From an uncultured Flavobacteriaceae bacterium (GTDB taxonomy: Bacteria; Bacteroidota; Bacteroidia; Flavobacteriales; Flavobacteriaceae), in contig CANLRK010000007.1 of assembly GCA_947493535.1 (NCBI GenBank), positions 62,001 to 126,000 on the forward strand: 64,000 nucleotides of DNA, given 5' to 3'. The position numbers and the translations under genes are program-made. Below the pieces are notes generated by a model. The model was not told the origin of the DNA. It saw nothing but the letters and a program-made list of their open reading frames with translations, and did not search any database. The stretch's first letter is position 1, and each line of letters opens with the position of its first letter. This document shows positions 45,665 through 49,190 of this stretch, in pieces.

Positions 45665-46537
45665 TTACTCTTCCAAATACCCAAATTTTCCGGTGTTGAA
45701 ATCTTCAAAGGCTTGTACTAACTCTTGTTGGTTGTTCATGACAAATGGTCCGTAAGCAGCAATTGGTTCTTGTATAGGTTCGCCACTTAATACCAATACT
45801 GTAGCGTCTTCTAAAGCATTGATTGTAAAGGTTTCACCAACATTATCAAAAAGCACTAAATGATCTTGCTTTACGGTATTTTTACTGTTGATGTTTACAT
45901 AACCTTGTATGGTTACTAAAGCCGTGTTGTAATTTGCAGGAAAACTTAACTGTGTCACAGCTCCTTTATTTAACTTAAGATTATATAGGTTTATGGGTGA
46001 AAATGTAGTTGCTGGCCCAATATTATCGTTATAATTCCCTGCTATAACTTCAACATGCCCAACATTATTTGGTAAAGCTACCTTTGTTAATTGCTTATGA
46101 GTAATAGCTTGGTATTTAGGTGGACTCATTTTATGTTTTGCTGGCAGGTTTACCCAAAGTTGCACCATTTGAAATTCGCCGCCTGTTTTACTCCATTCGG
46201 TTTCGTGAAATTCTTTGTGTAATACTCCTGAAGCTGCGGTCATCCATTGTACATCACCTTCGCCAATAATACCACCACCACCTGCACTATCGGCATGTTC
46301 TATTTTACCTTTATAGGCAATAGTTACGGTTTCGAAACCTCTATGTGGATGCACACCTACTCCTTTAGGTTTATCTGTTGGCGGAAAATTATAAGTTTCG
46401 TTATAGTCCATCATTATAAACGGATCCATGCGTTTCATACGAATGTTACTTGGGATAAAATTATGTACTCTAAATCCGTCACCTACAAAATGGGGTGTGC
46501 CCGGTTGTATTATTTTTTCTATATTTTTTGTTTTCAT
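45665..46537 (-). CDS. Pirin-family bicupin protein
   Basis: The 290-residue protein has the pirin signature with metal ligands in GVHPHRGFETVTIAYKGKIEHADSAGG (His-x-His about residues 62-66) and WMTAASGVLHKEFHE. A second cupin follows. Bacterial pirins act as quercetin-2,3-dioxygenase-like enzymes or as modulators of metabolism; which applies here is unclear. It follows an unknown 116-residue ORF by 1 bp, so both share a transcript. Confidence 0.93.
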   Translation of the reverse strand: MKTKNIEKIIQPGTPHFVGDGFRVHNFIPSNIRMKRMDPFIMMDYNETYNFPPTDKPKGVGVHPHRGFETVTIAYKGKIEHADSAGGGGIIGEGDVQWMTAASGVLHKEFHETEWSKTGGEFQMVQLWVNLPAKHKMSPPKYQAITHKQLTKVALPNNVGHVEVIAGNYNDNIGPATTFSPINLYNLKLNKGAVTQLSFPANYNTALVTIQGYVNINSKNTVKQDHLVLFDNVGETFTINALEDATVLVLSGEPIQEPIAAYGPFVMNNQQELVQAFEDFNTGKFGYLEE

Positions 46538-46538
46538 G

Positions 46539-46889
46539 TTATTGTGTTTTTATTAGTGCTTGTGCTAGCTGTAACTGTACCGAATTATCTACATAATTAT
46601 GCTTATTGTAGCGCCTTTTATTGATGAAATAAGCCTTATGGATCGTTTCTTTTAGCGCAATTTCCGTAGTAATTTCTAACTTGTTAATTTCAGGATAAAA
46701 TTTTTTAATAACAACATCTAACTTATTGATTTTTTGTGTGTTGAAGGGTTTTATTACTACTGCTACTTTATATCTATTTTGATGTAGCAATTCAATTGCT
46801 TTTTCTACAGTATTAGGGTTGGTTACTCTCCAGTTTAGCTTCGCTGTTATTCGTTGTTTACTGAGTACTAGTACATCAATGTGTTTCAT
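46539..46889 (-). CDS. Unrecognised 116-residue protein upstream of pirin
   Basis: I do not recognise this family. The protein has alternating strands and helices (HIDVLVLSK, YKVAVVIKP, LDVVIKKFYPEINKLEITTE) suggesting a small alpha/beta fold, and a basic C-terminal helix. There is no signal peptide or membrane segment. It sits 1 bp before the pirin gene and about 110 bp after the Crp-type regulator, all on the same strand. Confidence 0.65.
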   Translation of the reverse strand: MKHIDVLVLSKQRITAKLNWRVTNPNTVEKAIELLHQNRYKVAVVIKPFNTQKINKLDVVIKKFYPEINKLEITTEIALKETIHKAYFINKRRYNKHNYVDNSVQLQLAQALIKTQ

Positions 46890-46999: not shown

Positions 47000-47599
47000 T
47001 TAGCTATTTGGCTTGAAGTTTTCTTTAGCCAGCGCTTTACGTACACGACTTAAACTTTCTGGGGTAATACCTAAGTATGAGGCTATCATCCATTGAGGTA
47101 CTCGCAACATGATGTCTGGATACATCCTTACAAAATCTAGGTAACGGCTTTTTGCCGAAGCTCCTAGTAATTGACTTATACGCTTGTAAAGTTGACGAAT
47201 ATGATTGTGAAGCAATTGCTCATTCTTTTTTCTAAAATCGGGGTTGATATTGGCTACCTGAGTTATAAAACTATCGTTTAATAGAATTACTTGGGTATTT
47301 TCAACAGCATCGATATAATAACTTGAAGGTTCTTGAAAATAGACACTTCCCCTATCGCTCACTATCCAGTTTTCAGTAGCAAACTGTAGTATATTTTCTT
47401 TTCCTTCCTCATTTAAGGCATACATGCGCAATAAGCCTTGTTCTACAAAAAAGAAGTGTGAGCAAACCTCTCCTTGCTTTAATAGATACTCCCCTTTTGC
47501 TATTTTCTTGGTTTTGATATGTGGTAGTACTTGTTGTAACTGGGCTGCTGAAAGTCCGCATTTGGTTGTTAAGTGTGTGGCGAAATTAGATAGTTTCAT
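47000..47599 (-). CDS. Crp/Fnr-family transcriptional regulator
   Basis: The 199-residue protein has an N-terminal cyclic-nucleotide-binding-like beta barrel (KGEYLLKQGEVCSHFFFVEQGLLRMY) and a C-terminal helix-turn-helix (WMIASYLGITPESLSRVRKAL). The barrel lacks a clear cAMP phosphate-binding Arg-Ser pair, as in many Bacteroidota members, so the signal is unknown. It lies 27 bp downstream of the membrane-bound winged-helix regulator gene. It precedes the unknown-pirin pair, which it may regulate. Confidence 0.9.
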   Translation of the reverse strand: MKLSNFATHLTTKCGLSAAQLQQVLPHIKTKKIAKGEYLLKQGEVCSHFFFVEQGLLRMYALNEEGKENILQFATENWIVSDRGSVYFQEPSSYYIDAVENTQVILLNDSFITQVANINPDFRKKNEQLLHNHIRQLYKRISQLLGASAKSRYLDFVRMYPDIMLRVPQWMIASYLGITPESLSRVRKALAKENFKPNS

Positions 47600-47626: not shown

Positions 47627-48505
47627 TTAACTAATTTCTAACTTATACCCAACTCCGTGAACATTGGTGAGCTTAATATTAGTATCTGCTTTTAATTTTT
47701 TACGCAATTTGGAGATGTACGTATCTAAGCTACGACCTACGATTACGCCTTGATCTTCCCAAACTTTTTTACTTAGCTCTTCGCGTTTAATTATTTGATT
47801 AGGTTTTTCAATAAAAATACTTAGTAGTTCACATTCTTTTTTTGATAAATAAATTTCTTCGGCTTGTTTTACTAATTTATTTTGCTCTGGGTAAAACTGA
47901 AAACTCCCTAAAACGGTATAGTTTGTAGTGTTATCACTTTTTGAAGTGTTTGTTATTGGTTGAAGCGTCTTCTTTTTTCTCCAACCACTTGCAAGCAGTA
48001 CTATCCCCAATACTAATAGGCTATAATACACTATTGTAGCGGTATTTGATTTCTGAGGTATAGTAAACATTGTTTCGATACGGTAGCAATTTTTAGGTAG
48101 CGTTCTTCCTTTACAAGGAACAATATTATTACCTGTTGTTTGTTGTACGGCATAGCTGTACACTACTTTTTGAGTATTGCATGCCAACACTTCTAACAAA
48201 TAATTATTGGGTAATTGGGCTTTTTTAAAGCTTGACTGTGCAAAGTGCACTAAACTGTCGGGGTGTATGGCTACAGGTGTTTTTAAAGTTAGTACAAATT
48301 GATTGGGTGCTTTTTCAGTTACGGGAAGTACCAGCGAATTAAAATCGTTTTGCGCTCGCAAAAGCTTATCGCCCACCTCGCGTAAGGCAAGTTTTGCCCA
48401 AGATGGTGAAAAGGCTTGCTTGGGTTGGTGTGTTAGTAATAGACTTAAAGCTAAAATGCTAGTTATGAGTCCGCTAATAATTTGTATGTTTCTTTGCTGC
48501 ATCAT
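47627..48505 (-). CDS. Membrane-bound winged-helix (OmpR-type DNA-binding) regulator
   Basis: The 292-residue protein has an N-terminal transmembrane segment (residues about 7-24) and a region of about 130 residues, presumably periplasmic, with a Cys pair. A second transmembrane helix follows (IVYYSLLVLGIVLLASGW, near 162). The C-terminal OmpR/PhoB-type winged helix is LSKKECELLSIFIEKPNQIIKREELSKKVW, RSLDTYISKLRKKL and NVHGVGYKLE. It would sense an envelope signal and act directly on DNA, as ToxR/CadC do, but with the DNA-binding domain at the C-terminus. A 16-codon extension to a GTG exists, but it overlaps a direct repeat; the ATG at 48505 is preferred. The Crp gene follows. Confidence 0.85.
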   Translation of the reverse strand: MMQQRNIQIISGLITSILALSLLLTHQPKQAFSPSWAKLALREVGDKLLRAQNDFNSLVLPVTEKAPNQFVLTLKTPVAIHPDSLVHFAQSSFKKAQLPNNYLLEVLACNTQKVVYSYAVQQTTGNNIVPCKGRTLPKNCYRIETMFTIPQKSNTATIVYYSLLVLGIVLLASGWRKKKTLQPITNTSKSDNTTNYTVLGSFQFYPEQNKLVKQAEEIYLSKKECELLSIFIEKPNQIIKREELSKKVWEDQGVIVGRSLDTYISKLRKKLKADTNIKLTNVHGVGYKLEIS

Positions 48506-48546
48506 ATCAAGTAAAGAACTAACAATTTCGGCAATTTTTACAGTAG

Positions 48547-48577
48547 TTGACACTTATTTTACATTTTTTTGACACTT
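48547..48577. promoter_or_regulatory. TTGACACTT direct repeat, probable site for the adjacent winged-helix regulator
   Basis: Two identical 9-mers TTGACACTT (48547-48555 and 48569-48577) are spaced exactly 22 bp apart in the divergent region between the membrane regulator and the secreted protein. OmpR-class domains bind direct repeats on one DNA face, so this is a good candidate operator. Confidence 0.5.
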
Positions 48578-48665
48578 CATGCAGGGATTGGCTGTAATTT
48601 TATGCTGTGCTTATTTCCGGAACAAGCTGCAAATTATTATTTATTCACTTTTACAATTTATTATT

Positions 48666-49190
48666 ATGTACACGCAACTTATTATACTTTTCGTTTTTTT
48701 ACTTACATCATCAACGAACGCTACTTTACCTAAAGCTAGCCTGAATGACTCTTTAACACATAGTTTTACAGAAAAACCTTATGTTATTGATTTTTCATTA
48801 ACACAACAATCTACTACGGGGTATACCTTGCATATTTCTGTAAGTTTAAAGGATGGTGCTCATTATATTTCGCCTAATTCACGCGGAACCTATAAAGGAA
48901 AGTTTCAGTTGTTTATTGCTGCAAAACAACACTTAGCAGTAGATAGGTTTTTGATTGAGCAACCAGCTTCGAAAGAGATTTATGATTCGTACCCTTTTGT
49001 GAATGGTTATGTAAATTGGGTTGCAGTAGATACTCAGTATAGCCAACATCTCAATGTGCTTAGTACTGCTGATTTTAACGTGTTTGGTTATGTTCAATTC
49101 ACTATAGAGCCGCGTTGTACCCTAGAAAAGATTCCATTTATTATAAAGCAACGTAATGGGAAATTGGTAGTAGAATTGGATGTTTGTTAG
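48666..49190 (+). CDS. Secreted protein of unknown function, divergent to the membrane regulator
   Basis: The 174-residue protein has a signal peptide (residues 1-19, LIILFVFLLTSSTNA) and a beta-rich domain (YTLHISVSLKDGAHYISPNSRGTYKGKFQLFI, DRFLIEQPASKEIYDSYPFVNGYVNWVAVDTQY). The later half has an FTIEPRCTLEKIPF segment, recalling N-terminal domains of thiol-disulfide interchange proteins. No family was assigned. The frame extends 29 codons upstream, but the ATG at 48666 gives a clean signal peptide. Divergence from the winged-helix regulator suggests it is a target. Its stop overlaps the stop of the opposite gene by 4 bp. Confidence 0.7.
   Translation: MYTQLIILFVFLLTSSTNATLPKASLNDSLTHSFTEKPYVIDFSLTQQSTTGYTLHISVSLKDGAHYISPNSRGTYKGKFQLFIAAKQHLAVDRFLIEQPASKEIYDSYPFVNGYVNWVAVDTQYSQHLNVLSTADFNVFGYVQFTIEPRCTLEKIPFIIKQRNGKLVVELDVC

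Follow-up and report, generated by a model that had tools for sequence, protein, structure and literature searches.

A conserved tandem 11-bp repeat as the probable operator of a membrane-bound OmpR/PhoB-type regulator in Flavobacteriaceae

What purpose is served by two identical 9-mers in the 160-bp gap between two divergently transcribed genes, one on the minus strand (47627-48505) encoding a putative membrane regulator (P0001) and one on the plus strand (48666-49190) encoding a secreted protein (P0002), was the question raised by the window (the whole stretch of 64,000 nucleotides that was analysed). A search of the window placed TTGACACTT at 48547-48555 and 48569-48577, both on the plus strand and 22 bp apart as the initial annotation had reported, with no third copy in the window. 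The count of 9-mers does not reject chance, because at least two copies of the 9-mer were present in 22 of 100 shuffles of the window; chance is rejected because the element is conserved across relatives. Near the regulator start, the 28-mer TTGACACTTCTTTTACATTTTTTTGACA that makes up the whole element (layout TTGACA-N5-TTTACA-N5-TTGACA) was found with at most five mismatches in 87 of 91 distinct loci with an orthologous regulator (0, 1, 2, 3, 4, 5, 7 and 9 mismatches in 19, 35, 18, 8, 4, 3, 2 and 2 loci, respectively). Across 455 dinucleotide shuffles of these upstream regions the lowest mismatch count was 7, reached once (range 7 to 15, mostly 11 to 13). The DNA block is under strong constraint, because the regulator proteins in these loci are only about 50% identical to that of the window. 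Duplicates in the 91-locus set were removed by a 400-base coding key, and because the set was partly chosen by pattern match, including loci fetched in that way, a less biased figure was taken from 298 genomes, an even draw from the family rather than every family genome. Full-length P0001 orthologues were encoded in 62 of these (picked by eye from a protein search as long matches with about 38% identity or more), and the element was present at the promoter of the orthologous regulator, with at most five mismatches in 28, in 58 of the 62. The remaining four, two with a weak element (7 mismatches) and two with no convincing element (9 mismatches), count against reading it as an operator.

Alignment of the 91 loci resolved three half-sites whose starts are spaced exactly 11 bp apart (Table 1). 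Of the 11- or 22-bp periodicity invoked by the initial annotation, the direct repeats and the shorter period stood and the longer did not; the true period is 11 bp because a TTTACA half-site, overlooked at the time together with the -7 box of the divergent gene, lies between the two 9-mers. Head-to-tail half-sites about 11 bp apart are the arrangement of OmpR/PhoB-type operators, and their recurrence throughout the 91 loci is consistent with a candidate operator of this type. An RNA element was rejected as the identity of the repeat, the region 48300-48900 giving no Rfam match up to E 1. On the side of the secreted protein, 76 of 89 loci have a TAnnTTT box at a distance of 18-23 bp from the end of the element, usually at 20 and sometimes at 21 bp, and the box at the divergent promoter has the flavobacterial sigma-A form (TAnnTTTG), start sites being predicted from sequence. 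With this box at -12 to -5, the position given for flavobacterial -7 boxes in the available portion of PMC9723704, half-site 3 would cover about -38 to -33. On the regulator side, a conserved GTTATTT(A/G)C block was located 28-36 nt from the element, and in 62 of 87 loci the distance between the element and the regulator ATG is 43-45 nt. If this block is the -7 box of the regulator gene, the mRNA leader would have only a few bases, starting about 2 nt before the ATG at 48505, and the regulator mRNA would be nearly leaderless.

Table 1. Coordinates of the genes, half-sites and predicted promoter features at the divergent locus.
Feature	Position in window	Strand	Basis
P0001, membrane regulator, 292 aa	47627-48505	-	Pfam Trans_reg_C, structure model, conservation
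Predicted regulator promoter: -7-like block at 48512-48519, start near 48507	48507-48519	-	Conserved block and box position from the available portion of PMC9723704
Weaker fourth half-site TTTACA, 10 bp upstream of half-site 1	48537-48542	+	TTTACA-like block at -10 to -5 conserved in 91 loci
Half-site 1, TTGACA	48547-48552	+	Repeat search and alignment of 91 loci
Half-site 2, TTTACA, 11 bp after half-site 1	48558-48563	+	Alignment of 91 loci
Half-site 3, TTGACA, 11 bp after half-site 2, adjoining the -33 region of the divergent promoter	48569-48574	+	Repeat search and alignment
-7 box TAATTTTA (TAnnTTTG-like) of the divergent gene, predicted start near 48607	48595-48602	+	TAnnTTT at a fixed 20-21 bp after the 28-mer
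P0002, divergent target, 174 aa secreted protein	48666-49190	+	Open reading frame

The protein encoded at 47627-48505 carries an OmpR/PhoB-type winged helix (Pfam Trans_reg_C PF00486, E 1.8e-19, residues 216-289), for which the Foldseek matches included SaeR, ToxR and PhoB. Trans_reg_C was the sole Pfam match, and with no receiver domain found P0001 is not a two-component response regulator. Helices at 2-25 and 155-178 in the structure model predict a membrane link between sensor and DNA-binding domain, in the order N-terminal hydrophobic helix, periplasmic domain, transmembrane helix (approximately 155-178) and C-terminal winged helix. The periplasmic domain, in which cysteines 109, 131 and 140 are 97-100% conserved, was modelled with a pLDDT of 88; no fold relatives were returned by Foldseek at E 0.001 or below or by VIA-align at Z 8 or above, the best VIA-align match (Z 6.6) being an AlaX-type editing domain. 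The N-terminal helix ends in a lipobox-like sequence in 31 of 95 orthologues (including L008, L012, L014 and L019), so that about a third of these DNA-binding membrane proteins may be lipoproteins as well, and in most proteins of a sister subfamily it ends like a cleavable signal peptide. Given such helix ends, the mature regulator may keep a single transmembrane helix and a cytoplasmic C-terminal winged helix, as a "ToxR turned round". P0001 is predicted to resemble ToxR and CadC in having a membrane-anchored winged helix of the OmpR type, a periplasmic sensor domain and no receiver. In ToxR and CadC, however, the winged helix is at the N terminus, whereas in P0001 it is C-terminal (216-289 of 292), behind the signal-type helix, the periplasmic domain and the transmembrane helix; because the domain order is reversed, P0001 is ToxR-like in its working and falls outside the ToxR/CadC type.

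The sister subfamily was represented by 15 loci encoding regulator relatives at 29-35% identity. An array of three TTTACA half-sites was carried by 13 of these (L166 and L167 being off the sister consensus). Scoring by script placed the -7 box 31-32 bp beyond the array in 9 of these 13, and the sister array is thus one 11-bp step further from the -7 box than that of the window's subfamily. At position 263, in the recognition helix, 82 proteins have Tyr, and 81 of these are paired with a G in half-site 3; the other 24 have Phe, and 22 of these are paired with T or C in place of this G. In the available portion of PMC4832192, Tyr217 of PhoP from Mycobacterium tuberculosis touches the T and C of TCACAGC; in the alignment made in this analysis residue 263 corresponds to Tyr217, and the contacted base would be the one that varies here. 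As residue 263 changes once on a tree built without the recognition helix, the correlation between Tyr or Phe and the base is a single event and has no statistical weight of its own; the match between residue and half-site 3 base is suggestive only.

The element and the regulator were closely tied across the family. Searched genome-wide with at most three mismatches, the 28-mer was found in 53 of the 298 genomes, namely 52 of the 62 with the regulator versus 1 of the 236 without it (the co-occurrence over the 298 genomes was also put to a Fisher test), and the reversed control pattern gave no match at the same threshold in the 298 genomes. Of 148 genomes sampled across the order, 4 gave a match, and all four belong to the window's own family; the 127 genomes of other families gave none. 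A named genome collection held 38 relatives of P0001, including proteins from Kordia, Xanthomarina, Formosa, Lutibacter, Polaribacter, Lacinutrix, Psychroserpens, Tenacibaculum and Bizionia. The element was kept and the -7 box missing in six loci, five in which the neighbour is co-directional and ends 21-23 bp from the element (L086, L097, L103, L110 and L125) and one in which the neighbour has no secretion signal (L019). With only the regulator gene left to control there, these loci point to autoregulation through the array. The reverse case, a site before a target-family gene and no orthologous regulator by profile search, was met in three genomes (G200; G131, a single contig; and G083, 88% complete), and these orphan sites count against the operator reading. 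The initial annotation had proposed a membrane one-component sensor that binds its own promoter and controls the divergent secreted protein, and the comparison supports each of these proposals, through the Trans_reg_C domain without a receiver, the element at the regulator promoter in most regulator genomes and its retention in relatives with the gene pair: all 20 loci with a P0002-family divergent gene have it with at most four mismatches.

Divergent genes were examined at 95 regulator loci, four of which had no ORF; the 91 ORFs comprised 53 of YceI type (confirmed by Pfam for one seed, other members being assigned by BLAST linkage), 20 of P0002 type, 6 TonB_C-like, 3 TWGKE, 3 S41, 1 propeller and 5 unassigned. 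P0002 homologues were found in 15 of the 298 genomes, mostly beside the regulator, and neither P0002 nor two of the target families had a useful Pfam or NCBIfam match. When the element followed by 20 bp and TAnnTTT was searched with at most two mismatches, 70 matches were obtained in 61 of the 298 genomes versus 4 for the reversed control, 55 at the regulator and 15 elsewhere (one in each of 15 genomes). The genes downstream of the 15 distant sites were of TWGKE type (5) and LDCxxCD type (4), family names coined in this analysis from motifs, together with one each of YceI, P0002 type, TonB_C-like, S41 peptidase and Reg_prop propeller and one unassigned; the regulator locus of G078 (L190_2871) was left out of the 15 sites and is counted in the family tally as a second distant YceI. 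Fourteen of the 15 distant targets are thus members of seven families, and for six of these seven other genomes have a member divergent to the regulator; 10 of the 15 belong to families serving as divergent partner elsewhere. A P0002 homologue approximately 16 kb from the regulator carries its own element in G096. G029 and G005 have lost the divergent partner, but have the element and -7 box at a YceI and a TWGKE gene, respectively, at another place in the genome. A hydrophobic, secretion-type N-terminal segment was scored in 106 of 107 divergent and distant target proteins, by a crude hydrophobicity rule and with spurious ORFs included (the cis ORFs of L086, L097 and L110 are spurious, the real neighbour being co-directional).

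In the window's own genome the element with a -7 box occurs at two sites only, that of the window and one on contig C1 (G000 C1:568983; locus L142, site at 1984). The latter precedes the gene for a Reg_prop propeller protein of 320 aa whose N terminus resembles that of a lipoprotein; in G050 (L157) a relative of this protein is encoded divergently from the regulator. The LDCxxCD protein, of approximately 410 aa with the motif near its N terminus and no Pfam or NCBIfam match, has the element in four genomes (L144, L149, L150 and L191), two of which (G200 and G131) are without the regulator. The distant target in G005 (L192) is serine-beta-lactamase-like, with a C terminus consisting of the TWGKE-type domain that other genomes encode as a separate protein under the element.

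On the strength of what was observed directly, namely a conserved element that accompanies the regulator, keeps a fixed distance to the -7 box and recurs before the same secreted families, we propose that the repeat is probably the operator of the neighbouring membrane OmpR/PhoB-type one-component regulator, which would activate genes for envelope proteins and control itself. Judged from sequence comparison, the array is very probably bound by P0001, and activation of the divergent gene, rather than its repression, appears likely; the signal is tentatively taken to be an envelope or redox one. Cytoplasmic winged helices would sit head-to-tail on three to four T-N-A-C-A half-sites 11 bp apart, the last of which would extend to the -33 region of a promoter of sigma-A type whose -7 box resembles TAnnTTTG. 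Once a signal is received by the periplasmic domain with its three cysteines, the tethered regulator would be able to fill the array and recruit RNA polymerase to the secreted-protein gene, and the same array would control the regulator's own gene in the opposite direction. Binding by P0001 could also serve to repress the divergent gene and the regulator itself until the signal arrives, since half-site 3 abuts the -33 region, where bound protein could block polymerase, and the array is placed upstream of the start of the regulator gene as well. This is unlikely, as the fixed -7 box distance and the one-helical-repeat step between subfamilies would fit contact-dependent activation, and repressors would usually tolerate more positions. 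That the array is bound by some other winged-helix protein, for example a soluble response regulator with the membrane protein merely one of its targets, is quite improbable: the three target-site genomes without the membrane regulator do have response regulators with similar winged helices, but such regulators occur in almost every genome (some match in 297 of 298), whereas the element co-occurs near-perfectly with the membrane regulator and half-site changes track its subfamily. A mere -33/-7 core of a strong sigma-A promoter, with repeats and no regulator, is very hard to sustain, because, although TTGACA resembles a -33/-35 element and is followed by a -7 box, half-sites 1 and 2 are conserved as well as half-site 3 across the 91 loci, half-site 3 is without TTG in 11 of them, and the element persists where the -7 box and divergent gene are lost and is absent from 235 of the 236 regulator-less genomes, which also have sigma-A promoters.

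Taken as the operator of P0001, the array has its closest parallels in PhoP and PhoB. PhoP of M. tuberculosis is described in the available portion of PMC4832192 as binding TCACAGC direct repeats with a period of 11 bp (7-bp motif and 4-bp spacer), with cooperativity on arrays of two, three and four sites and tighter binding to arrays of three or four than to pairs. Both cases would place a winged helix on head-to-tail 11-bp half-sites, TCACA there corresponding to T-N-ACA here, but P0001 is membrane-bound and has no receiver domain, whereas PhoP, a soluble response regulator of a two-component system, does have one. Taken singly, none of the three features (winged helix, 11-bp array, one-component membrane design) is new. 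In the pho box of Escherichia coli PhoB, tandem 11-bp half-sites stand at the upstream edge of the activated promoter, as they do at the promoter here; the array here, however, appears to end further upstream of the -7 box than arrays in the pho regulon, and is joined to a flavobacterial -7/-33 promoter and a membrane-tethered regulator. No description of this regulator, of its operator or of the combination with reversed domain order and regulon was found in the literature searched, subscription journals being mostly outside its scope. The system could plausibly represent a family-wide, hitherto undescribed form of envelope signalling in Flavobacteriaceae, in which a type-I membrane protein would read the envelope or redox state onto DNA through a TNACA tandem array, with a nearly leaderless mRNA and a divergent slot occupied, depending on the lineage, by any of six or more secreted families whose members are found under copies of the array at other sites. 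Envelope signalling in this family is poorly mapped, and the locus yields a regulator, an operator at base resolution, a promoter geometry and target families mostly of unknown function; in a relative that can be grown in the laboratory, a single footprint and a single deletion would put the whole regulon to the test. Because the divergent slot changes its target genes and keeps its operator, it offers a clean natural experiment on regulon rewiring.

Two further targets suggested by the initial annotation fared less well. Control of the pirin operon is not supported, as neither of the two sites of element plus -7 box in the genome scan lies near 45665-46889. The Crp-type gene was rejected as a conserved partner, since among 111 loci a homologue lies near the regulator in three lineages only, namely this genome (L001 and L045), a congener (L033 and L074) and L094. 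Read-through into it is possible: the gene, at 47000-47599, follows that of the membrane regulator after a gap of 27 bp, shares its strand and is possibly co-transcribed with it.
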